Shown here in pieces: positions 10,833-29,214 of a DNA stretch of 64,000 bases. Source of the stretch: Sporomusaceae bacterium (lineage in GTDB: Bacteria; Bacillota; Negativicutes; UBA1444); NCBI GenBank assembly GCA_018434355.1, contig JAHDPL010000032.1:1-64000 (forward strand). The letters run 5' to 3'. The notes beneath the pieces were generated by a model. It was not told where the DNA came from. It searched no databases and was given only the letters and a program-made list of their open reading frames with translations. The stretch's first letter is position 1. Every line of letters starts with the position of its first letter. Made by a program: the position numbers and the translations under genes.

Positions 10833-11981
10833 TTACCGCAGAATCGAACCGGAAATGACCAGTTTCTGCACTTCATTGGTTCCTTCGTAGATCTGGGTGA
10901 TCTTGGCGTCGCGCATCATCCTCTCTACCGGGTGGTCGCGCAGGAATCCATGACCGCCGAGGATCTGTACGGCTTCGGTCGTGACTTCCATCGCGGTGTC
11001 GGTGGCAAACATCTTGGCCATCGCCGCTTCCTTGGAATACGGCAGTTTGTTGTCCTTCAGATAGGCAGCGTGCAGGGTCAGCCACTTGGCCGCTTCGATC
11101 TTGGTCGCCATTTCGGCCAGTTTGAACGCGATGACCTGTTGGTTGCAGATCGGTTGGTTAAATTGAACACGCTCTTTGGAATATTTCAGCGCGTACTCGT
11201 ATGCGCCCATGGCGATGCCGACGCCTTGCGCTGCGATGCCGATCCGGCCGCCGTCCAGCGTGGTCATGGCAATCTTGAAGCCTTCGCCGACTTTGCCAAG
11301 CAGATTCTCTTTGGGAATTCGGCAGTTTTCAAAGAACAGGTTGCGCTGCACAGTGGCGCGAATGCCCATTTTTTCTTCCTGTTTGGTGAACGTGAAACCA
11401 GGTGTGTCTTTCTCGACGATAAATGCGCTGATGCCTTTGACGCCTTTGCTCTTGTCGGTCATCGCAAACACGACATAGACTTCGGCCAGTCCGGCGTTGG
11501 TGCAGAAGCATTTTTCACCGTTCAGGACATAAAAGTCGCCATCTTCGACGGCTGTTGTCAGTTGTGCGCCGGAGTCGCTGCCTGCGCCGGGCTCGGTCAG
11601 GCCGAACGCGCCGACCAGTTTGCCCTGGAACAAAGGTACCGAGTATTTTCTACGCTGCTCTTCGGTGCCATAAGCGAAAATCGGCCAGCCATTGAGCGAA
11701 ATGGCGACAGAGTAAGCGCAACCGGTCGAGGCGCAAGCTTTGTTGATCTCGATGCTGGCCAGCGCATAGGAAATCTGGTCGGCGCCGGCGCCGCCGTACT
11801 CCGTCGGATACGGCAGACCCATCAGGCCGAGCGGGGCGAATTTTTCCTTGAACATCTTGTAGATCGGCTCGAAGCTTTCGCCTTTGTCCCATTCCTTGGC
11901 ATTGGGTGCGACTTCTTTGGCCACAAGGTCCTTGGCAAGTTGCTGGATGCGCAATTGGTCTTCTGTCAGTTGGAAATTCAC
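10833..11981 (-). CDS. acyl-CoA dehydrogenase (butyryl-CoA dehydrogenase-like)
   Basis: 382 residues from a GTG placed after GAGGGGGAAACAAATC; a longer open frame begins 15 codons upstream but has no ribosome binding site. Family features: LMGLPYPTEYGGAGAD, the FAD/substrate segment AFGLTEPGAGSDSGA, CFCTNAGLAEVYVV, and the C-terminal YEGTNEVQKLVI containing the catalytic base glutamate of short-chain enzymes. It interconverts a saturated acyl-CoA and its 2-enoyl-CoA with electron transfer to an ETF. It precedes the FabD-like, hbd and crt genes with very short gaps, so these are one transcription unit. Confidence 0.93.
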   Translation of the reverse strand: MNFQLTEDQLRIQQLAKDLVAKEVAPNAKEWDKGESFEPIYKMFKEKFAPLGLMGLPYPTEYGGAGADQISYALASIEINKACASTGCAYSVAISLNGWPIFAYGTEEQRRKYSVPLFQGKLVGAFGLTEPGAGSDSGAQLTTAVEDGDFYVLNGEKCFCTNAGLAEVYVVFAMTDKSKGVKGISAFIVEKDTPGFTFTKQEEKMGIRATVQRNLFFENCRIPKENLLGKVGEGFKIAMTTLDGGRIGIAAQGVGIAMGAYEYALKYSKERVQFNQPICNQQVIAFKLAEMATKIEAAKWLTLHAAYLKDNKLPYSKEAAMAKMFATDTAMEVTTEAVQILGGHGFLRDHPVERMMRDAKITQIYEGTNEVQKLVISGSILR

Positions 11982-13789: not shown

Positions 13790-15907
13790 CTACGCATCGT
13801 AGCGGGTAATCTGGTACTGTTTCATTTTTCGCACGATCGTCGACTGGTTCACTTCCAGCACACGGGCCACCTTGCGTGTGGAACCGTGCTCGCCGAAAGC
13901 CCGTTCCAGCAGTAGCGCTTCCAATTCTTCCACCGCCTGCTTGTAAGGCACGACCCGGTTCAGCACGACAGCTTCCGAGCCGTCGACCACCGTCTCGATT
14001 TTCCCCTGCATCGTTTCCGGCAGATGGCAGGGATCGATATACGGCTCGTTGACCAGCACGACCAGCCGCTCGACCAGGTTTTCCATCTCGCGCACATTGC
14101 CGGGCCAGTCATAATTGACCAACCGTTCGACCGCAGCTGTCGAAAACCGTTTTTGCATGCTGTACTTTTGATTGACCTTGCGCAGCATTTCATGCAACAA
14201 CGGCGGGATATCCTCACGACGTTGCCGCAGCGGCGGAATCTGAATGCCAAATACATTGAGCCGATAATATAGATCGTCGCGGAATACGCCGGCTTTGACC
14301 AGCGTCGGCAAATCCTTGTTGGTGGCGGCAATAACCCGGACATCGACCGAGATCGGCTTGACGCCGCCGACCCTGGTAAGCGTCTTTTCCTGCAACACCC
14401 GCAGCAACTTAACCTGCAAGCCGAGCGGCAACTCGCCGATTTCATCGAGGAACAGCGTCCCGCCTGAAGCCAGTTCGAACATGCCGGGCTTGCCGTCCTT
14501 TTTCGCGCCGGTGAATGCTCCGCCGGCATATCCGAACAACTCCGACTCCAGCAGATTTTCCGGAATCGCACCGCAGTTCAGCTTGATAAACGGCTGGTTT
14601 TTGCGCCGGCTGAGCGAATGGATCTTATTGGTGATCACTTCCTTGCCAACGCCGGATTCGCCCATGATCAGCAGCGTCGAATCCACGGTCGCAATCCGCG
14701 CCGCCATTTCAACCACCCGTTGCATTGCCGGGCTCTTGGCCACCAGGTCATCCATCTTTAACTGCTGCAGGCGAATCTGTTCCAGTTCGGATACATAGCG
14801 TTGATTCAGCTCTACCGTAGCTTCCAGCTGTCGCTGCAACTGCTCGAGGTCGGTCATGTCGCGCACATTGACGACAATTTGGAGCAATTCGCCATTGTCA
14901 TCGAACATCGGCGTGCCGGTGGCCATGACCTGGTTGCCTTTGCGCGGGCCTTCCAAAATATTGACCAGCAGAGTGACTGTTTTCCGTTGCTCCAGCGCCG
15001 CCACCGCCGCCGATTTGTCGTACCATTTGCTGTCAACCAGTTCGTGGGCCGTTTTGCCGAGGATCTCAGCCCGCGGAAAGCCGCAGATTTTTTCCCAGGC
15101 CGAATTCACGCGAGTTACCCGCCCTTTGTTGTCGGCAATGTAGAACCCGTCATAGGAGTTTTCAAAAATTGCATCCAGTTCCTTGACCACCGAATTTGAG
15201 GTCTGCAACTGCGAACAAACAAAATCGTACTCGGATAGATCGAGGAAAACACTCATCGCGCCGACGCACTCGCCTTCATAAACCAGCGGCGTCCGGTTGG
15301 ACAAAATGCTTACCCCGTTGATTTGAGTCCGCACACCTGTCATCGGCGTCATCTGGTTCAGCGCATCCAGCATCCCCATATTCGGGTCCAGTTCGCCAAT
15401 ATGCCGACCGATGACCTCCTGCCGCTTTCGACCGAGAATCCGCTCTGCCGCCGGATTGAAAATCACGATCTTGCCAGCATTGTCAATCGCCAGAATTCCA
15501 TTGTGCGACGCTTCGAGAATCTTGCGTTCCATCTCGGCGATCTGACGGAAATAGCGGCTGGTTTTCCGACCGATCAACTTAGCCCGCATGAAGCCGATCA
15601 GCTTGTCCGCCTCGTCGACAAAGGGCACTACATCATTGTAGATCGAAAGATCGATCCTGTCATGCCGCGTTGTCAGTCGCTGGGCCTTCAGTTGTGTCAG
15701 GTTGTCCGCGATGTCGCCTTTGGCCCGCAACTCTTCCGCCGCGAACAACAAGGTCCGCACGCAGATCATGCCTCGATATGCCCCGGTTTCATCCTGCACC
15801 GGCAACGAAAAATATGGAACCCGACCAAAAATGGCGATGGCTTCGTCCACCGAATGGCTACAGAGCAATACCGGTTCCCGGACCAGATCGTCTTCGCTAA
15901 GAAACAC
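13790..15907 (-). CDS. sigma-54-dependent transcriptional activator with CBS and PAS domains
   Basis: 705 residues from a GTG six bases after AGGAGG; the frame is open 14 codons further upstream. Domain order: a CBS-like pair (about 1-120), PAS domain 1 (about 135-240, ILEASHNGILAIDNAGKIV), PAS domain 2 (about 250-365, AIFENSYDGFYIADNKGRV), a short coiled linker, the AAA+ domain with Walker A GESGVGKEV, the sigma-54 contact loop GAFTGA and Walker B FLDEIGELP, and a C-terminal Fis-type helix-turn-helix (VARVLEVNQSTIVRKMKQY). The sensor domains suggest binding of a small ligand, perhaps a CoA ester, acid or nucleotide. Sigma-54 promoters at 13599-13615 and 3588-3604 are its likely targets. Confidence 0.93.
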   Translation of the reverse strand: MFLSEDDLVREPVLLCSHSVDEAIAIFGRVPYFSLPVQDETGAYRGMICVRTLLFAAEELRAKGDIADNLTQLKAQRLTTRHDRIDLSIYNDVVPFVDEADKLIGFMRAKLIGRKTSRYFRQIAEMERKILEASHNGILAIDNAGKIVIFNPAAERILGRKRQEVIGRHIGELDPNMGMLDALNQMTPMTGVRTQINGVSILSNRTPLVYEGECVGAMSVFLDLSEYDFVCSQLQTSNSVVKELDAIFENSYDGFYIADNKGRVTRVNSAWEKICGFPRAEILGKTAHELVDSKWYDKSAAVAALEQRKTVTLLVNILEGPRKGNQVMATGTPMFDDNGELLQIVVNVRDMTDLEQLQRQLEATVELNQRYVSELEQIRLQQLKMDDLVAKSPAMQRVVEMAARIATVDSTLLIMGESGVGKEVITNKIHSLSRRKNQPFIKLNCGAIPENLLESELFGYAGGAFTGAKKDGKPGMFELASGGTLFLDEIGELPLGLQVKLLRVLQEKTLTRVGGVKPISVDVRVIAATNKDLPTLVKAGVFRDDLYYRLNVFGIQIPPLRQRREDIPPLLHEMLRKVNQKYSMQKRFSTAAVERLVNYDWPGNVREMENLVERLVVLVNEPYIDPCHLPETMQGKIETVVDGSEAVVLNRVVPYKQAVEELEALLLERAFGEHGSTRKVARVLEVNQSTIVRKMKQYQITRYDA

Positions 15908-16055
15908 GCTGCACCTCCTGGCGAGCTTTCCTTGCTCATGTAAAATCAACTTTATTTCGCGACGAATTATTATTCTAAATTAATCGACTTTTCCGACAGT
16001 CCACCTTTATTTTTACATAAAACAAGCGCCCCGTCCACCCCTGTAATTAAAAAAA

Positions 16056-16092
16056 GCATCAGTCAGACGGGTTCTGTCCGTCCGACTGATGC
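16056..16092 (-). terminator. intrinsic terminator of the serine operon
   Basis: A 15-bp stem (16056-16070 with 16078-16092; one G-U pair on the minus strand) with a 7-base loop, followed on the minus strand by TTTTTTTAATTA. It lies 34 bases after the stop of the small membrane protein gene, so that gene belongs to the serC-serA-DUF1015 transcript. Confidence 0.9.
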
Positions 16093-16126
16093 AAAATTAC
16101 ATCACTTCATTTGGAGTCTTTCTTGG

Positions 16127-20396: not shown

Positions 20397-20440
20397 ACGA
20401 ATCACTCCTGTTTGTAAAATCTTGCTTCGAAAAAATAAAA

Positions 20441-20676
20441 CCTCTCGTCCCTGTTATAGGGACGAGAGGAAAAGTTACTCCCGCGGTGCCACCCAAGTTG
20501 CCGGAAATTCCGGCCTACTCTGTCCGCTGTATCGGGCGGTCCCCGTCATGATTCTTCACCAGCCGCTCCCGGGTGGACCTGTCTGTGCGGATTGCCGTCT
20601 CACACCAACCGACGGCTCTCTGAAATCCTGTCACCAGCAGTATCCCGCTCATCGCGTTCCTCTGTTGTTAAATTTA
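20441..20676 (-). promoter_or_regulatory. T-box leader (serine type) upstream of serC
   Basis: The minus strand carries GGGTGGCACCGCGGGAG (inside 20477-20498), the conserved T-box that pairs with the tRNA acceptor end, followed by an intrinsic terminator (CCTCTCGTCCCT paired with AGGGACGAGAGG, 20441-20469, then TTTTATTTTTT). Upstream lies a Stem I-like region with GCCGTC-GGTTGGTGTGA-GACGGC (distal arm), followed by AATCC; TCC at 20591-20589 is a candidate serine specifier codon. Uncharged tRNA-Ser should stabilise the antiterminator and switch on serC-serA. T-box and terminator are seen directly; the specifier is inferred from position and from the genes controlled. Confidence 0.93.
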
Positions 20677-20682
20677 TAACTG

Positions 20683-20767: not shown

Positions 20768-21457
20768 TTACAACAGTTGGATGCGTAGCCGCTCATGCGC
20801 ATAGACTTCCATCACCCAGGCGTCATAGTCATCATCCTTGATCGTAACAATCCCGTACATTTGCCGCATCGGCAGATAAATCTGGATGAAGTCGGTCGAC
20901 GCCACCGGGATGATATGCTGCAGCCCCTGTTTCTGGTTCATGATGACGATTTTTCCCGACCGGACAACTTGCAGATAGGTTTCAAACCAGATGTGTTCGG
21001 CCCGTTTTATGACATAAGTGGTTTCAGCGTCTGCACTCAGGTCGAAGCTGCGGCTTTCCGACAGGTAGAATGACCGGGTGGTCTTGAACGCCTTGTAAAC
21101 CAGCGGCATCCCGTAGCCGGCATGCTGTCGGAGAGCATTGATGTTGGCGAAAAAATAATAGCTGCCGCTCTTCAAGTTTTTGAACACGGCTTTGCCTGTT
21201 TCATCGGTTGTCGCCTTGCCGTTTTCCCTGCCGGTAAAATCGGCTATCATCGCATGCAGCGTAACGCCGCGAATTGGCGCGCCGTCCTCATCCTGCAACG
21301 TGACGGTCAATGTTGGCGGCGCGACTTTTGTCGGCGGGTCAGCCGGTTTGACGACATCCGGCGCTGCAAAAGCCGGCAGGCAAATCGCAAGCAGCAGAAT
21401 CAGCAGAAAAGTTGCCACCCTGAAGTGGTTCAGTCTGTTGCGGGTTGTTTTCATCAT
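20768..21457 (-). CDS. secreted protein with Ig-like (CnaB/transthyretin-like) domain, unknown function
   Basis: 229 residues from the second of two adjacent in-frame ATG codons, six bases after GGAGG (an earlier ATG overlaps the site). A signal peptide (FRVATFLLILLLAICLPAFA) is followed by a proline-rich linker and TLTVTLQDEDGAPIRGVTL...TDETGKAVFKNLKSGSY, the pattern of a carboxypeptidase-regulatory/CnaB-type beta sandwich (about residues 49-110). The remainder is beta-rich with no family I recognise. It is the last gene of the secretin cluster, 30 bases after the second secretin, and probably acts in the periplasm or outer membrane with it. Confidence 0.7.
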   Translation of the reverse strand: MMKTTRNRLNHFRVATFLLILLLAICLPAFAAPDVVKPADPPTKVAPPTLTVTLQDEDGAPIRGVTLHAMIADFTGRENGKATTDETGKAVFKNLKSGSYYFFANINALRQHAGYGMPLVYKAFKTTRSFYLSESRSFDLSADAETTYVIKRAEHIWFETYLQVVRSGKIVIMNQKQGLQHIIPVASTDFIQIYLPMRQMYGIVTIKDDDYDAWVMEVYAHERLRIQLL

Positions 21458-21493
21458 CTTCATCCTCCGCTGCGATCACACAATGGTGCGTAT

Positions 21494-22573
21494 TTAGAGC
21501 TGTTCCGGCAAAATACGGACCGATACCGTCAACACACCGACTTTATGAGTTAATTGGGTGGTTTTTTGGCTGAACAGATACTTCAGGTAAGGAATGTTCA
21601 TCAGAATCGGAATCCCGCTGACCGACTTTGTTTCGGTATCGCCGGCGAACACACCGACCACATACAGGTTGGTGTCGGCCTTGACGTACCCCATTGTGTT
21701 CAGTGTCTTGGTGGAAAACTCATTGGCGGTTGACTTTCCGACCACCACGGTACCGGTAATCATCGCCATCTGCATGTAGATATCCAGCCGGATCACACTT
21801 TCCGACGGATTTTCCGGATGATATTTCACGATGGTCGGCGTAATCTTCACGTCGCTGCTGATCGTCTGGGAAGTCAGCGTGGAATTCCCGTTGCTGTCTG
21901 TAGTCTGCAACGGCACGATCGTCTGGCTGAGCAACTGGCCCTGAATGCCGTTGGGGGTGTACAGATTGCTACCCATGATCACTTTGCTTTTCGACAGCGA
22001 CCGGTTGAGTTGGGCATTGAAGCCGAAGTAGCCGCTGGCCGGCAATGCCAAGCCATGTGTCAGCGTGTCGACCTTTGGCGCAGGATTGGCACTGAGGTCC
22101 ACCACCCGGGTCAGCGACTGAATCCCATAGGTCGCGTTGCCTGTCATCGACGACCAGTCGATGCCGGCCGTGAGGTTGTTGCTGATATCCAATTCGCGCA
22201 AATAGGCCGAGATAACGAGGCGATGCGGTCGGCCGGCCTCCGCCAGCAAGCCGCGCATTTTTTCCGCCGCGCCGCGCAAAGCGTTCTCGTCATTGCCGGA
22301 TAACAGCACCATTGCCGGCGCGCCCTTGGGCTCGAGTAGTGCCATCGACATGCCGGAAAACTCCGGCATCCCCTGCAGATACTGCAACAAGCCGGTAACT
22401 GCCTGCTCGTTGCCATAGATGACCGGCAGCATCACCGTGCCGTTTTCCACCACAATCTCAGGCAAACCGGTCTGCGGCGGCGCCGCTGCGGCGGCGCCGC
22501 AGATCAACAAACAAATCAGCGTCGCCATTAATAAACGGGACATCCTTCGGACCAGGCCACTGCTAATAATCAT
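21494..22573 (-). CDS. minimal secretin-domain protein 2
   Basis: 359 residues: a signal peptide (MSRLLMATLICLLICGAAAA), one small N-domain (about 35-125, ending AGRPHRLVISAYLRELDI, the layout of the last ring domain before a secretin barrel), and a secretin-like C-terminal domain with SKSKVIMGSNLYTPNG, SSDVKITPTIV, SVIRLDIYMQMA and GIPILMNIPYLKYLF ending VGVLTVSVRILP. True type II/III and type IV pilus secretins are longer, with several N-domains; none is present here. Its start codon overlaps the upstream secretin stop by 11 bases with GGAG inside that gene, so the two are translationally coupled. Confidence 0.8.
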   Translation of the reverse strand: MIISSGLVRRMSRLLMATLICLLICGAAAAAPPQTGLPEIVVENGTVMLPVIYGNEQAVTGLLQYLQGMPEFSGMSMALLEPKGAPAMVLLSGNDENALRGAAEKMRGLLAEAGRPHRLVISAYLRELDISNNLTAGIDWSSMTGNATYGIQSLTRVVDLSANPAPKVDTLTHGLALPASGYFGFNAQLNRSLSKSKVIMGSNLYTPNGIQGQLLSQTIVPLQTTDSNGNSTLTSQTISSDVKITPTIVKYHPENPSESVIRLDIYMQMAMITGTVVVGKSTANEFSTKTLNTMGYVKADTNLYVVGVFAGDTETKSVSGIPILMNIPYLKYLFSQKTTQLTHKVGVLTVSVRILPEQL

Positions 22574-23696
22574 AGCCCGTCTCCTTTTCCACCGGCAAAA
22601 TTCGCACGCCGACGGTCAGTATCGAAGCCATGTGCTGTAATGTATGGTTGTTGGTCGAGAAAATGCTCTTTAGCAATGGAATGTGCATCAAAATCGGAAT
22701 GCCGCTGCGTGACTTGGTTAGCGTATCACTGGCAAAAAGGCCGCCGATGATTTTGTTATTATCGGCTTTGACATAGTGCGTCGCCGTGAGGGTCTGCGTA
22801 GTATAGGCGGACGCCTGGGCATTATTGCTGAACGTTACCGTGTTGGTCGGCACGCTTAGCTGGATGACCACGTCGAGACGCACGATGCTCTCCTCAGGTT
22901 TGTCCGCATTGAAGTTCACGATAGTTGGTGTGATTTTCACGTCGCTGCTGATGGTCTGGGTGTTGAAGGTCACCTGATTACCGCTCCCGAGCGGCACCGG
23001 TATCGAGTCGTCGTTCTTCAGTTCGGCGGTCGCGCCGTTCACAATGGTGATTTCACTGCCGACGATAACTTTGCCGCGGGAGATCGTGCGGGTCAGATTA
23101 CCGACAATATTGGCAGGCATGTTGGCTAGGCCTAACGTATATCCGCTATCTGATTTTGTAGTCACGCCGCCGGTGGTGGTTACGGTCGAAGTGTTGGCTT
23201 GCGTAATGCCTCCCTGAAATCCATTGGAAAACCAGGACAATCCCACCGCATCGTCATTTTCGACCGTGATTTCCCGCAAATAGGCGGATACTACCAAACG
23301 GTGCGGCTGCCCCATCCGGCTCATGATCGTCTTCAGCTTCTGCACGGCATAACGCAAGGTTTCGTCGCCCTGGCCCGCCAGAAGAATCTTAGGCTTGGTC
23401 CCGACCGCAGAGTACAGGGTCATTTTTATTCCCTGAAAATCGGGGTCCTGCGCCAAGGCGCCAAGCAGCGACTGCACGGCAACATCATTGCCCGGCAGGA
23501 TCGGCAAAATCGCCACTCCGTTTACAATGCGGTAGCCTGCAACATTTGCGGCAACTGCTTCCGCCGGTGTTGCAGGAGCATTTACGCTGTTGGCGGGATT
23601 GGCGGCAAAACAGACAACCGGCGCGTTATGCCCCAGCAGCAGCATGATGGATAAAGCAAATACCCCTGCAGCGAATCGTTTCCGACAGTCCCTCAA
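22563..23696 (-). CDS. minimal secretin-domain protein 1
   Basis: About 377 residues if translation starts at the TTG five bases after GGGAG; an upstream TTG at 23711 is possible. Signal peptide (AAGVFALSIMLLLG...CFA), one N-domain (about 45-130, MSRMGQPHRLVVSAYLREITV), then secretin hallmarks: ISRGKVIVGSEITIVNGATA, DDSIPVPLGSG, SSDVKITPTIV, ESIVRLDVVIQLS and GIPILMHIPLLKSIF followed by ILTVGVRILP. It is a clear paralogue of the next gene and is presumably a partner in a mixed outer-membrane ring, or a duplicated ring. No GspE/PilB ATPase or pilotin gene is seen nearby. Confidence 0.82.
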   Translation of the reverse strand: MRDCRKRFAAGVFALSIMLLLGHNAPVVCFAANPANSVNAPATPAEAVAANVAGYRIVNGVAILPILPGNDVAVQSLLGALAQDPDFQGIKMTLYSAVGTKPKILLAGQGDETLRYAVQKLKTIMSRMGQPHRLVVSAYLREITVENDDAVGLSWFSNGFQGGITQANTSTVTTTGGVTTKSDSGYTLGLANMPANIVGNLTRTISRGKVIVGSEITIVNGATAELKNDDSIPVPLGSGNQVTFNTQTISSDVKITPTIVNFNADKPEESIVRLDVVIQLSVPTNTVTFSNNAQASAYTTQTLTATHYVKADNNKIIGGLFASDTLTKSRSGIPILMHIPLLKSIFSTNNHTLQHMASILTVGVRILPVEKETGYDY

Positions 23697-23739
23697 CGGC
23701 ACTCCCACCAATCAAAAATGTTATCCAACGGCGCCGGGC

Positions 23740-24753
23740 TTATTGACCGGGTGTTATCGCACCATGCGGCACGGCCATGAAAATCAGCGAGCAATTAGCG
23801 TAATCACCGGACTGCAGCAGCGCCACCAAATCGTAATTGATCCCCTGCACTACGCCGACGCCCGACAGATTCGAAAAGTTGGGGTACATCAGCGCTGCAG
23901 TGTTCAGGTAGGCCGGTTTGCTAAGCGAACCGGCCGTAATAGACGTCGGCGTCCAGCCGCTTTGCGAACCGGCAGCCTGGATGGTGAGCAGCTGCGTCAC
24001 TTTTTGCGTGCTGCTATAGGGAGGAGCTCCCATCGTCGCCGGGATATTGGTGTTGTTGGTAGACCAGCCGTAATTGTTGGTCCCGTCGCCAAAACTGAGG
24101 GCGTAGGCAGCCATATAAGAATATTTTCCCACCGACATCGCACTGGGAGTAGCAAATCCCTCCGACCCGGTCACCATGAAATTGAGCGCGGCAGTTTTAG
24201 CGTTTTGCTGGCCGGTAGTGCTGTTGATGACGATTGGCAAGGAAAAATAAGCCGTATGGGCGGCATATTTTTGATAGGGGTTCTGACTGCTGCCGTTCGC
24301 TTTGCTTGTCAAATCAATGCTGTTGGAATTGTAATTCTTATTGTTATTGGCGCTGGATTGGACCCAGGAATTGTTTGGGTTGCTCAGGCCGATCTGCACT
24401 GAGTGAAAGGCGAATCCGCTGCTGCCGCTCGCCTTGTTGCCGCCACCGCTGCTGTCGTCAGCGCCGGTAACCCCTTTCAACCAGAACGAGTTCACCGCGG
24501 TGGGCGTATTGGGAATCTGGGGGCCGGAGAACCCCTTCATGATATCGGTTTTATTGGTCGGATCACCCACATGGATTTCCCAAGGGGTCAGGTTGATGAT
24601 ATTCAGTACAGCCAGCATATTCATCGTCGGTTGCATATTCTGTCCCTGCGTATACGCCAAAATGCTGGCATACGGGGCATTGGCCGAAACCAGACTGCCA
24701 AAGCCAAGCAGGCACGCCATTAGGCAATAGCAGAGGATCTTTCTTGTAAGCAT
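23740..24753 (-). CDS. secreted protein, family A copy 2 (unknown function)
   Basis: 337 residues from an ATG eight bases after GAGG (a second ATG two codons earlier is possible). Signal peptide (ILCYCLMACLLGFGSLVSA) then PYASI. Compared with the copy at 26431-27432 it shares PYASI, INLTPWEIHVG, NSFWLKG, FAFHSVQIGL, the exact eleven-residue SFGDGTNNYGW, QLLTIQA and the C-terminal YDLVALLQSGDYANCSLIFMAVP. The composition (Asn, Ser, Thr, Gly rich, few Cys) suggests a beta-rich exported protein. I do not recognise a family. It precedes secretin 1 by 43 bases. Confidence 0.75.
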   Translation of the reverse strand: MLTRKILCYCLMACLLGFGSLVSANAPYASILAYTQGQNMQPTMNMLAVLNIINLTPWEIHVGDPTNKTDIMKGFSGPQIPNTPTAVNSFWLKGVTGADDSSGGGNKASGSSGFAFHSVQIGLSNPNNSWVQSSANNNKNYNSNSIDLTSKANGSSQNPYQKYAAHTAYFSLPIVINSTTGQQNAKTAALNFMVTGSEGFATPSAMSVGKYSYMAAYALSFGDGTNNYGWSTNNTNIPATMGAPPYSSTQKVTQLLTIQAAGSQSGWTPTSITAGSLSKPAYLNTAALMYPNFSNLSGVGVVQGINYDLVALLQSGDYANCSLIFMAVPHGAITPGQ

Positions 24754-24795
24754 TGCCATTTCCTCGCTTTATCGTTTATTTTCACCTATCCGCAA

Positions 24796-26247
24796 TCAAC
24801 GCGGCAATTTCGCCAGATAGCGCTCGATCGCCGGAATTTCGCTGCGGTGTTTTTCGAAAACTTCCTTGAGCGTTTTCTTGATGGCGGCTTGCGTGGTCGG
24901 TTCCTGTTGCGCCTTACCTGCCTGGCCGCGCAGGCCAAATGTGTCAATCAGTTTTTTGGCATCCTGTGGGTTCTTTTTAGCAATTTGCTCGAGTATCGCC
25001 AACAGTTTGAACGAATCCTGCGCCTGTTCTTTGTTTGGCTTGTATTGCAACTTCGCTCCGCCAACCTTTGCCGGCGAAGTGCTGTTCAAACTCTGCTGCA
25101 TTTGGTTTGCGGCGTAAACGGCTTGATTGATCACCATCACAACCAGCGTGTCAGCTGAGTTCCGTTCGTTGGTTGAAGTATTTTGCGGACTCGTTCGCCA
25201 GGTATATACGATCACTGCATTCTGTTGTTCCAGTGTCGGTATTCCGCCCTGGCCCGCCGCGTTCGTTTCATAGACCAGATAGCTGCTGTTGCCGCTTGTC
25301 AACGGCAGAACCAATCCGTTATTGCCGGGCGCAAGGGCGGCGGTTACGTTAATCCCTTTGTAAGTAGCAGGATAGGGCGCGTTGGTATAGCTCTCCGACC
25401 CCGAATCCAGCATTTCCTTGATTGATTTGTAGATGCCGTAAACCATATCGGCAACACCGATTGGCGTCGGTTCGGCAATCGTTTCAATATCGACCAGCAG
25501 AGTGAGGATATCTTCCACCCAGTCCTGTTGCGGCGGAAATGAGCTCTGCTGGGCCTGATAAGCGCTGGTAGCCCCGCCAAGGCTGTTGATGTTGATGACA
25601 TAACCGGCCAGCGGCGAACCATTGCTTGAAATCGGATTCAGGCTGATCGTGCTGGTCGAGGCAGCAGCCATGCTTTGTCCATAGGCTGCCTGTGGAGTGT
25701 AATTGTAGTAGTTGCCGGTCTCTTGCGAACCGGGCGTGCCGCCCATGCTGGCGCCGCCACTCCCATAAGTGTACGGCACATAAGCAGTGCCGGGAAAGTT
25801 CACCGTGCCGCTCCAAGATGGAAACATAGCGAACGCATTGAGAAAACTGAAGTTCGTATTGCTGGCTGCGCCGGAGGCTGACGCCACCGGCTGCAGGGAC
25901 GCGTTGGTTGAACCACTTGGTGCGGCGGTTGGTGTAGTCGGGTTGCTAAACAAAGGCGTCGTTCCGCCGCCTTGAGGGTAAGCCACACCGGACAATCCGA
26001 TCGCGATCGGCGTGTTCGCTTTTGTGTAGGCCGCAGCTTGATTGGTCGAAATGTTAAAATTGATTGGCACTTGGGTCAGGTTCATCACCATGACCGGCAA
26101 CACGCCATAAGTTTGCACTTGCACCGCCGTGCCCGCCGGTGGCGGCGATGCCGGAGCAGCTGCCTGCACGACCCCGCCGGATATGACTGCAAACGCAGTC
26201 AATATGGGTACGGCGAAATCACGAAAGATTTTTTTCGCAACAAACAT
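24796..26247 (-). CDS. secreted protein, family B copy 2 (unknown function)
   Basis: 483 residues with signal peptide (FAVPILTAFAVISGGVVQAA). It shares with the copy at 27452-28963 the N-terminal VQTYGVLPVMVMNLTQVPI (about 44-62), IAIGLSGVAYPQG, FLNAFAMFPSW, a hydrophobic stretch at about 243-280 (WVEDILTLLVDIETIAEP), and ERNSADTLVVMVINQAVY (361-378). The C-terminal 80 residues (about 400-483) are predicted helical and charged, ending RYLAKLPR. The low-complexity Ala/Ser/Thr/Pro segment at 95-130 is linker-like. Preceded by AGGA seven bases before the ATG and by an AT-rich 183-base gap (26248-26430) that may carry its own promoter. Function unknown. Confidence 0.75.
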   Translation of the reverse strand: MFVAKKIFRDFAVPILTAFAVISGGVVQAAAPASPPPAGTAVQVQTYGVLPVMVMNLTQVPINFNISTNQAAAYTKANTPIAIGLSGVAYPQGGGTTPLFSNPTTPTAAPSGSTNASLQPVASASGAASNTNFSFLNAFAMFPSWSGTVNFPGTAYVPYTYGSGGASMGGTPGSQETGNYYNYTPQAAYGQSMAAASTSTISLNPISSNGSPLAGYVININSLGGATSAYQAQQSSFPPQQDWVEDILTLLVDIETIAEPTPIGVADMVYGIYKSIKEMLDSGSESYTNAPYPATYKGINVTAALAPGNNGLVLPLTSGNSSYLVYETNAAGQGGIPTLEQQNAVIVYTWRTSPQNTSTNERNSADTLVVMVINQAVYAANQMQQSLNSTSPAKVGGAKLQYKPNKEQAQDSFKLLAILEQIAKKNPQDAKKLIDTFGLRGQAGKAQQEPTTQAAIKKTLKEVFEKHRSEIPAIERYLAKLPR

Positions 26248-26430
26248 TCCGGAGTCCTCCCTTCCTTATGGCCCCTAGATCGACTCTTCATTCCCGTCAG
26301 TACTTGCGATTGCCAATTTATTCAATATTTATGGAGTAGTTCGACAATACTCTATTTTTTCCTTTTATTCTTTTGCGCAACCAAGCAAACAACTTTATTG
26401 ACTCGTGAAAACCATAGCGATTAAATAGAT

Positions 26431-27432
26431 TTATTGTTTCATTCCTGAGAGCAGTGCATTGTTGGCAGATGGAACCGCCAGGAATATCAGCGCATTGTCT
26501 ACGTATCCGCCGGCCTGCAGAATAACCACCAGGTCGTAGCTCTGCCCGGCAACCGCAGTGACGCCGGACAAAGCGGAAAAGTTGGGATACACCAGGCCGG
26601 AAGCGGTAAGATATTCCGGACACTGCACCGGCGTCCCCGGCGCAGACCCGTCAACGCCTTTATTGCTTGTACTGCCGACCAGGTTTTTCGTGATCGGTTT
26701 CCAATTGTTTCCGCCTTGCAGCGCCTGAATCGTCAAAAACTGCGTCGTGTTTGTTTTGAAATTTCCGGTTGCTTTGTCCGCGACAAGGGTGTCATTGCTT
26801 CGCCAGCCGTAATTATTGGTTCCGTCGCCAAAGCTGATTGCGGTCGCCGGATAGTAGTATGGGGTTTGACCGCTACTGGTTCGCGTGAATCCTGCCGTGG
26901 ACAGTACCGAAAAGTTTAGTGCGACGGTATTGCCTGACTGCGTAAAATTGTTGCTGTTGAATACGATGGGAATCGTCGACAGATTGGTCGTGCCCTGAAA
27001 CGGACCGGCATCATTGTCGCCGCTGCCTTGCCACAGATTGGTATCCAAAGGCCATACCCCGTTGAGGTCGGCCAGCGGGATCTGAAGGGTATGAAAGGCA
27101 AAATTCGGGTTGACATAACTGTTGTTTGTGTTGGTAACATAGCTGGTATTGATTCCCTGCAGCCAAAACGAAAACAGTTTTGACGCCCCCATCCCCGGAA
27201 GCATCGGTGTATCCACCGGTCCCTTGCCAATGGAAATGTTCCAGGGGGTCATATTGATGATGTCCAGCGTTCCCAGCGGGCTAATGTTGGGAGTACCACT
27301 GGATTTGCCATTACCGATGTTTTCATTGTAAATCACGATGCTTGCGTAAGGCTGAGTTGCGGCAACAGCCACGTTTCCCAGCGTCGCGACGGCCCAAAAC
27401 AAACACCAAATGAACTTTTTCATTCCGCTCAT
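26431..27432 (-). CDS. secreted protein, family A copy 1 (unknown function)
   Basis: 333 residues from an ATG nine bases after AGGAGG (an ATG three codons earlier overlaps that site). Signal peptide (FIWCLFWAVATLGNVAVA), then PYASIVIYNE, INMTPWNISIG, FSFWLQGI, FAFHTLQIPL, SFGDGTNNYGW, FLTIQALQGG and the C-terminal YDLVVILQAGGYVDNALIFLAVP, all shared with copy 2. The conserved blocks are spread along the whole length, so the two are full-length paralogues from an old duplication. It follows the family B copy 1 gene by 19 bases. Confidence 0.75.
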   Translation of the reverse strand: MSGMKKFIWCLFWAVATLGNVAVAATQPYASIVIYNENIGNGKSSGTPNISPLGTLDIINMTPWNISIGKGPVDTPMLPGMGASKLFSFWLQGINTSYVTNTNNSYVNPNFAFHTLQIPLADLNGVWPLDTNLWQGSGDNDAGPFQGTTNLSTIPIVFNSNNFTQSGNTVALNFSVLSTAGFTRTSSGQTPYYYPATAISFGDGTNNYGWRSNDTLVADKATGNFKTNTTQFLTIQALQGGNNWKPITKNLVGSTSNKGVDGSAPGTPVQCPEYLTASGLVYPNFSALSGVTAVAGQSYDLVVILQAGGYVDNALIFLAVPSANNALLSGMKQ

Positions 27433-27451
27433 GACTCGCATCCTCCTCTAC

Positions 27452-28963
27452 CTATCGTTTGGCGGCAATTTTCGCGAGACATTGTTCAATAAAAGGTCGA
27501 TCGCCTGCGTGCTTTACGAGGTCATACTTTTTGAAGATTTCCGCGAGCCGGATGTTTACGTTGTGCAGTTCTGCAGGATTCTTTTGCAAATCCCTGAACT
27601 TGCCGCGCTGCCCAAAGATGCTTACGATATAATTGGCATCCTGAGGTTGTTCTTTGGCAAGATTGTTCAATATGCCCAGGATTTTTGTTGCGTCCCCCGC
27701 CTGTTCCCTGGTTGGTTTGGCAGCCGGCATGCCAACCGGCTGCGAAAGGTATTGCGCCGCCTGCTGCGACGAATATACGCCTTCGTTGATTACAGCCACA
27801 ATCAACATATCGGTTGAATTGCGCTCTTGCGAGCTGGAGTTCGGCGGGTATTGCCGCCATGTTGTGATATAAACATTATTTTGCGCGATCAGCGGCAGCG
27901 TTGCAGTCGACGACACTTGATACGTCAATGCGTCAACATCTCCCTCATAAAGGGCAAACTTTTCATTATTTCCATCAGTGAAGGTTGCTGTCGCCGAAAC
28001 ATTTACCCCCTTGGCTTTTGCCGTATAGGGAGGCACGTTGGTCTGCGCCGCGCCTGGCGAATCCAGTTGCGCCTGCATGCTTTGCAGCGAAGAGAGTCCG
28101 CCGACAACGATGACCGCTTTGCCGAACGCATCCGCCGGGTCGAGGAATATCATCACATCGCTGACAACATCGAGGATGGTGCTGATCACCGATAACAGGG
28201 TTGGTTTTGCCGGTTTGGGTATGGTGCTGGGCGTACCGGCGCCCAACGAATTGACGTTGATCTTGTATACTGCCTGCGCTGTGTTATTGTTCATCAGGCT
28301 CAGATTGATCGAGGCCGTAGTCGGCGAGGCTGCGTTGTGCGCCTTGGCGCTGGTGTAGTTGCCGGACTTTACAATCGCATTGCCATCTTCCTTGGCTGAT
28401 GGATAGCCGGCCAACACCGTATAGTTTTGGTACGCCGCAGCGCCCTGATTGTTCAGGTCGCCCAAGGCCACATATTCAACGTAGTCAAACTTTGCCGGGC
28501 TCGTCCAGGAGGGAAACAGCGTGAACATATTCAAAAAATTCAATTGGCTGTTATAGGTGTATGATCCCGCCGGACCCGAAGCCGCAGCAGTCGCCACAGG
28601 CATCAGTGATGCGGATGTTGCGCCGTTGGCCGGTGTAGCGGGAGTATAAATATTGGTGAATGTCGTCGTAGTTCCACTTGCTGAAGGGTAATAGACGCCC
28701 GACAATCCGGCGGCCAGCGGCATACCGGGCCCACCATTGACCGTGTACGCGCTCGGACTTGTCGTGGAAACATTAAAATTGATCGGGGACTGCGTCAGAT
28801 TAAGGACAAGCACCGGCAATACCCCATAGGTATTGAGCTGAATCGCACTTGCCGTGGGCGTGATCGGTAAATTATCAGCTTTTGCCACATTGCCGGAAAT
28901 AACGCTCAGGACAAAAACCAATGGCACGACTACCCGGAGAATAGCTCCTGTGAAACAAAACAC
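27452..28963 (-). CDS. secreted protein, family B copy 1 (unknown function)
   Basis: 503 residues from a GTG eight bases after AAGGAGG (a TTG two codons earlier lies too close to that site). Signal peptide (VVVPLVFVLSVISGNVAKA), then the block LNTYGVLPVLVLNLTQSPI, LAAGLSGVYYPSA, FLNMFTLFPSW, a strongly hydrophobic stretch at about 255-292 (LLSVISTILDVVSDVMIFLD, FGKAVIVVGGL), ERNSTDMLIVAVINEGVY and a helical C-terminal region ending KIAAKR. It is the first gene of the secretin cluster behind the promoter at 29033-29060. No family recognised; the hydrophobic stretch could insert in a membrane. Confidence 0.75.
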   Translation of the reverse strand: MFCFTGAILRVVVPLVFVLSVISGNVAKADNLPITPTASAIQLNTYGVLPVLVLNLTQSPINFNVSTTSPSAYTVNGGPGMPLAAGLSGVYYPSASGTTTTFTNIYTPATPANGATSASLMPVATAAASGPAGSYTYNSQLNFLNMFTLFPSWTSPAKFDYVEYVALGDLNNQGAAAYQNYTVLAGYPSAKEDGNAIVKSGNYTSAKAHNAASPTTASINLSLMNNNTAQAVYKINVNSLGAGTPSTIPKPAKPTLLSVISTILDVVSDVMIFLDPADAFGKAVIVVGGLSSLQSMQAQLDSPGAAQTNVPPYTAKAKGVNVSATATFTDGNNEKFALYEGDVDALTYQVSSTATLPLIAQNNVYITTWRQYPPNSSSQERNSTDMLIVAVINEGVYSSQQAAQYLSQPVGMPAAKPTREQAGDATKILGILNNLAKEQPQDANYIVSIFGQRGKFRDLQKNPAELHNVNIRLAEIFKKYDLVKHAGDRPFIEQCLAKIAAKR

Positions 28964-29032
28964 GCGCAATTCCTCCTTGTTCTTTTTTCTCCAACGCTTT
29001 CAACACTGTACCCCGACCCCGCAATCGACTTC

Positions 29033-29060
29033 ATTATATATTAACTGTATATTTTTGTAA
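29033..29060 (-). promoter_or_regulatory. candidate sigma-A promoter of the secretin/A-B cluster
   Basis: On the minus strand TTACAA (29060-29055) and TATAAT (29038-29033) are 16 bases apart in AT-rich DNA about 70 bases before the family B copy 1 start. The -35 box is imperfect. The rest of the divergent gap to 29214 holds no other clear element. Confidence 0.5.
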
Positions 29061-29214
29061 CCTTAACATAAAAAATCGTTTAGCCAAATGGCACAATTGT
29101 CACTAACCCTCAATCCCAGATCAGACGCAAGCAGGTTTTTTTGTCACCAATCGCTAATATTCACTTAAGAGGTTTGTAAAGCAAATCAAAGCTAAAGCAT
29201 TGGAGGTTCCCATC

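Follow-up and report, generated by a model that had tools for sequence, protein, structure and literature searches.

A recurring pair of short secretins with associated secreted proteins in the Negativicutes, and its possible role in outer-membrane export

The DNA analyzed here (the window) is a stretch of 64,000 nucleotides (nt) from a Sporomusaceae bacterium of the Negativicutes (assembly GCA_018434355.1, contig JAHDPL010000032.1, positions 1 to 64,000), and it contains, between positions 20768 and 28963, a cluster of seven genes read from the minus strand in the order B1-A1-B2-A2-S1-S2-Cna: two short secretins (S1 and S2), a secreted protein with a transthyretin-like domain (Cna), and two copies each of secreted proteins A and B (Table 1). 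A check of the open reading frames (ORFs) places all seven genes on that strand at the positions given by the original prediction, and inspection of the N-termini agrees with its claim that each product carries a signal peptide, which is of the Sec type. The intergenic gaps measure 10 nt (B1-A1), 183 nt (A1-B2), 36 nt (B2-A2), 28 nt (A2-S1) and 30 nt (S2-Cna), and the S1 and S2 reading frames overlap by 11 nt; S1 and S2 are 39% identical, the A and B paralogues 40% in each case. The ORF tool starts B1 at a TTG codon at 28969, but the GTG codon listed in the table is the better start, because it lies 7 nt after a AAGGAGGA ribosome site.

Table 1. Features of the seven-gene cluster in the window
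Feature	Coordinates	Strand	Description
B1	27452..28963	-	secreted protein, unknown family; GTG start at 28963
A1	26431..27441	-	secreted, mostly strand, unknown family
B2	24796..26247	-	B1 paralogue, 40% identical
A2	23740..24759	-	A1 paralogue, 40% identical
S1	22563..23711	-	short secretin: one predicted N3-like domain and barrel domain, no N0; PF00263 1.3e-15
S2	21494..22573	-	short secretin, second subfamily; PF00263 7.5e-15
Cna	20768..21463	-	secreted; transthyretin/CarboxypepD_reg-like domain (about residues 51-105) and conserved C-terminal half
Promoter-like match	29033..29061	-	GTTACA-17-TATAAT, 10/12, upstream of B1; consensus match only

S1 and S2 belong to the secretin superfamily: their only Pfam match is the secretin barrel domain PF00263, at 57.8 and 55.4 bits against a cut-off of 27.5, and the same domain is matched by all ten members of the S family. 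Ahead of the barrel domain the mature proteins have about 90 residues, which is room for one domain, and neither Secretin_N nor STN is matched in any of the ten even at E<=1, so that the earlier description of a single N-domain and a barrel, with none of the extra ring domains, is borne out. The alignment of the family with the profile of PilQ-type secretins from Negativicutes (99% probability, E 3.7e-18) extends from the second half of the single N-domain to the end of the protein, and within it that second half lines up in register with the final N-domain of PilQ, a correspondence which is not significant when the half-stretch is compared alone. These results fit proteins in which only the N3-like position is filled and N0 is absent. 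N0 and N3 together are common to all secretins according to a cryo-electron microscopy study of pIV (PMC8563730), and this combination was not found in S1 or S2. In the tree the S family forms a well-supported clade apart from the GspD-, PilQ- and RcpA-type secretins, within which S1 and S2 are two separate groups with moderate support, both of them kept in every locus.

The machinery that usually accompanies a secretin was sought both beside S1 and S2 and, for the ATPase, throughout the genome. The genome has four secretins, namely S1, S2, one in a Tad-like cluster (recognized by sequence, in L039) and one that is PilQ-like, and only three ATPases of the T2SSE family, two of which are adjacent and PilB/PilT-like while the third is CpaF-like, names which reflect arrangement, size and match and not a dedicated subtype search. 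The pilus and Tad secretins account for all three ATPases, and none is left for S1 and S2. No GspE ATPase, GspF platform or pseudopilin gene of a type II system was seen in a locus with an S1-S2 pair, nor was any pilin, platform or ATPase gene of a type IV pilus or Tad system, the other secretins of the genome lying elsewhere; the prediction that the secretins have no ATPase or platform gene beside them is correct. The lack of N0 and of motor genes argues against a docking of S1 and S2 onto an inner-membrane machine. An alternative proposal is that S1 and S2 serve as a second outer-membrane gate for the type IV pilus or the Tad machine, with A and B as accessory or pilus-tip proteins. The three ATPases and the two other secretins give this proposal some footing, but it is distinctly unlikely given that S1 and S2 have neither N0 nor further N-domains, that the pilus and the Tad machine each already have a secretin, and that pilin and platform genes were not seen in the loci.

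Neither A nor B gave a credible match in Pfam, NCBIfam, PHROGs, PADLOC or the PDB sequences, and none of the searches connected them with a known pilus, S-layer, toxin or defence family, a connection that would have told against the prediction; a match of B to dispersin in the PDB (E 0.0049) was dropped as too short, since it covers only 32 residues. AlphaFold models of A and B, built from six sequences each, have a mean pLDDT (predicted local distance difference test) of about 44, too poor to use, and Foldseek matches of these models to serpins and kinesins were disregarded; the low-confidence model of B2 (mean pLDDT 44) shows strands, a helical hairpin as an insertion, and helices in the C-terminal region. 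Charged residues make up 7-12% of A and B, and N, S, T, G and Q together 37-46%, compared to 22-34% in the neighbouring genes and the satellite enzymes described below, which fits proteins that would reside outside the cell. A2 is 79-81% identical to its copy in the congener G001.

Two further families, A' and B', take the place of A and B in some genomes. Profile comparisons between A and B, A and A', and B and B' detect no significant overall similarity. All four families nevertheless have in common, close to the N-terminus of the mature protein, the motif hhN[LM]Txxxhxh, and a search for it in the form [ILVM]2-N-[LM]-T-xxx-h-x-h found it in 17 of the 223 ORFs of the examined loci, every one of them an A, B, A' or B' gene. 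The motif is a lead towards a fold which the four families may have in common, and is not proof of one.

The remaining protein of the cluster, Cna, was originally called CnaB-like, and this is acceptable as a guess at its fold; it does not extend to a sortase-linked surface protein, since neither a sortase motif nor a lipobox was seen on inspection and the best domain match is to CarboxypepD_reg (9.9e-06), below the Pfam cut-off.

The association of these genes recurs across genomes, which were sampled mainly from one class. A search with the S profile finds the S1-S2 pair in seven genomes, the window's own included (G000, G001, G017, G050, G075, G078 and G337), which span four families of the Negativicutes. 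In all seven, Cna lies directly downstream of S2 and a B-A or B'-A' pair is present, and in six the pair is on the same contig within about 10 kb of S1-S2, the pair of G050 being on another contig. Among 120 related genomes A and B occur in exactly the same six, a tally that may or may not include the window's own, and a search of the class (379 genomes) adds one further carrier of A, G337, which also has B (locus L029). A and B share a contig with S1-S2 in five genomes (G000, G001, G075, G078 and G337), and in G017 and G050 they are replaced by A' and B'. The gene order varies between loci, and therefore the linkage does not reflect the simple inheritance of one arrangement. S1-S2-Cna is thus a well-supported, inseparable gene set which recurs in the Negativicutes with a pair of the B-A type. 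The recurrence of A and B beside short secretins, by which the prediction was to be judged, is present, and the opposite outcome, that homologues of A and B never sit with secretins, is not what was found. A search of 348 genomes across the phylum gave no close S other than the window's own, searches of plasmids, phages and viral contigs with A, B or S gave nothing, and in searches of open-access literature, which is a part of the whole, no account of such a cluster came up.

Some relatives show other arrangements. Three genomes (G335, G002 and G024; L073, L074 and L075) have a single, more distant short secretin, found with the S profile, with a Cna-like neighbour and without A or B; beside it lie a papain-like protease in G002 and a 322-residue secreted protein in G024. 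S1 of G050 appears to be in two pieces (L071:7406-8739), through an assembly error or a broken gene. In G090 a B-A pair stands alone (L032:7239-9735), adjoining integrase-like and phage-like genes from 9953 onward, and the A homologue of G022 (L036:626-2101), which sits between two B-type genes, is longer at its N-terminus by about 200 residues. The cluster of G075 lies between two inverted IS6-like transposase copies (L028:2535-3149 and 15850-16107; 86% identical over 376 nt), and because these copies stand on both sides it may move as a unit.

Such observations raise the question of whether the genes merely travel together on a genomic island without functioning together. The patchy distribution, the transposase copies of G075 and the occurrence of A and B without S in two genomes would all be expected in that case; it is highly improbable, however, given that all seven S1-S2 genomes have Cna together with a pair of the B-A type, under changing gene orders, and that A' and B' take the place of A and B in the same role. 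An instance of this exchange is provided by G075 and G050, which belong to the same genus and carry A/B and A'/B' respectively, so that within one genus the chassis goes with either pair; in the tree the S2 proteins of these two are each other's partners. The S2 protein of G017, the other genome with A'/B', falls together with those of G000 and G001, which have A/B. In G050, A'/B' adjoins the sensor kinase that in G075 stands beside S1-S2-Cna-B-A, and the S1-S2-Cna locus of G050 is without a B-A pair. S1-S2-Cna looks like a fixed chassis on which the B-A pair can be exchanged, and in the window the pair is doubled while the chassis stays single; a role as cargo fits these facts better than a role as a fixed structural part.

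A pair of secreted proteins that is duplicated and exchanged might also be a two-component toxin or bacteriocin-like agent with its own exit pore. A and B are nearly always paired, B has a helical hairpin in its low-confidence model, and several loci include a GHKL sensor kinase and a LytTR response regulator resembling AgrC and AgrA (L029:2919-4226 and 13862-14668; L028:3719-5041 and 11197-11919), which hint at control by a peptide or by cell density. Against this, no immunity-like gene recurs, none of the searches returned a toxin, phage or defence match, and Foldseek yielded nothing from the low-confidence models; a toxin is very unlikely.

The remaining satellite genes bear on the direction of transport. 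Tat-signalled metallophosphoesterases occur in the loci of G337, G078 and G075, accompanied in part by a HAD phosphatase, a DUF3089 hydrolase, a porin and an outer-membrane transporter; in G022 a choloylglycine hydrolase and a lipase are encoded close to A and B. Together with the GHKL kinase and LytTR regulator, the satellites of the three loci suggest regulated chemistry at the surface or in the periplasm, and they could belong to a system for uptake, in which A and B would capture a polymer or phosphoester outside the cell, which would then enter through the secretin rings and be cut by periplasmic enzymes. PilQ-type secretins do act in DNA uptake. Yet the satellites are absent from the loci of the window and of G017, the known uptake through secretins requires a retracting pilus, and A and B are not lipoproteins as judged by inspection, so that uptake appears unlikely.

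The surroundings of the cluster in the window look like housekeeping genes, with serA and serC on one side and a flavoredoxin-like gene on the other (identified by sequence, without a database search). The guanine-plus-cytosine (GC) content of the cluster genes, 52-56%, is near the 55.8% of the window, and the third codon positions of A and B are somewhat poorer in GC. The consensus scan that gave the promoter-like match upstream of B1, the best one there, found 8 such matches, where 7.3 are expected by chance. A strong terminator-like stem at 20441-20469 was considered as the end of the operon and dropped, as it appears to be part of the leader of the next gene: the region 20440-20680 (minus strand), before serC, has GGGTGGCACCGCGGG and a 12-pair terminator-like stem and resembles a T-box, and Rfam gave no match at the gathering threshold in this leader or anywhere else in the window.

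The reading that we prefer, with a probability of roughly one half, is a compact secretin-based system for export or display at the outer membrane, in which S1 and S2 are the pore, Cna is a periplasmic helper, and A and B are exchangeable, Sec-exported cargo or surface partners. We infer the direction of transport, its source of energy and the function of A and B as follows. The Sec pathway would take all seven proteins across the inner membrane; S1 and S2, whose genes would be translated together, would assemble in the outer membrane into a single mixed ring or into two related ones and, having no N0, would not dock onto an inner-membrane machine; and Cna would assist in their assembly or gating. 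B and A, as folded beta-rich proteins, would then pass the pore as a pair and remain on the surface or be released, with folding, binding or assembly on the outside, and not ATP, as the driving force, as in curli export, and the pair could be swapped, or duplicated as in the window, with the pore genes remaining in single copy. Several points weigh against this reading. G090 (96% complete) and G022 (84% complete, fragmented) carry A and B without a close S or a true Cna, and therefore A and B are not strictly dependent on the pore; the phosphatase satellites could mean uptake; S1 and S2 could make use of the machinery of the pilus or of Tad; A and A', and B and B', are linked by the motif and by gene position, with profile comparisons that are not significant; and the motif was defined on the same sequences, which makes its absence elsewhere a partial test only. 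The original proposal of a simple outer-membrane pore or export complex stands as regards the gene association, while transport itself is plausible only, A and B being present in two genomes without the secretin pair.

All secretins described in the cited work serve machines anchored in the inner membrane, which they meet through N0 (PMC8563730), and those known from diderm Firmicutes and Negativicutes belong to the type IV pilus, Tad and type II secretion systems (PMC5007114, PMC6668835). It is conceivable, although we hold this tentatively, that the cluster represents a new class of outer-membrane export in diderm Firmicutes, with a hetero-oligomeric, N0-less secretin pore, a transthyretin-like helper, no inner-membrane motor, and exchangeable pairs of beta-rich surface proteins of new families. 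If so, a recurrent pair of secretins that has neither N0 nor a motor would reveal the action of a secretin ring by itself, and a route of protein export would be added to the Negativicutes. A, B, A' and B' are four uncharacterized families with a common signature.

Among known systems, S1 and S2 are like the GspD, PilQ and RcpA secretins (type II, PilQ and Tad) in their barrel domain and their match to the PilQ profile, but they have one N-domain instead of several, come without an accompanying ATPase, platform, pilins or pilotin, and are two diverged secretins in tandem. The pIV protein of filamentous phages is also a small secretin, and S1 and S2 match phrog_1012 (1.3e-07 and 5.9e-06); pIV, however, retains N0 and N3 and requires the pI/pXI inner-membrane complex (PMC8563730), whereas the window's locus has no pI-like assembly ATPase or phage genes, phage records hold no relative of S2, and IMG/VR none of S. 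Cna resembles transthyretin-like CarboxypepD_reg domains in residues 51-105, but with a score below the Pfam cut-off, a conserved C-terminal half of unknown kind and no visible signal for surface anchoring. In curli export, Sec-exported proteins of low charge reach the surface through an outer-membrane pore that has no motor. The likeness of the present cluster to that system (CsgG/CsgE/CsgF) would be one of working principle only, since the two are not homologous, the CsgG pore being formed by a lipoprotein with a different fold.
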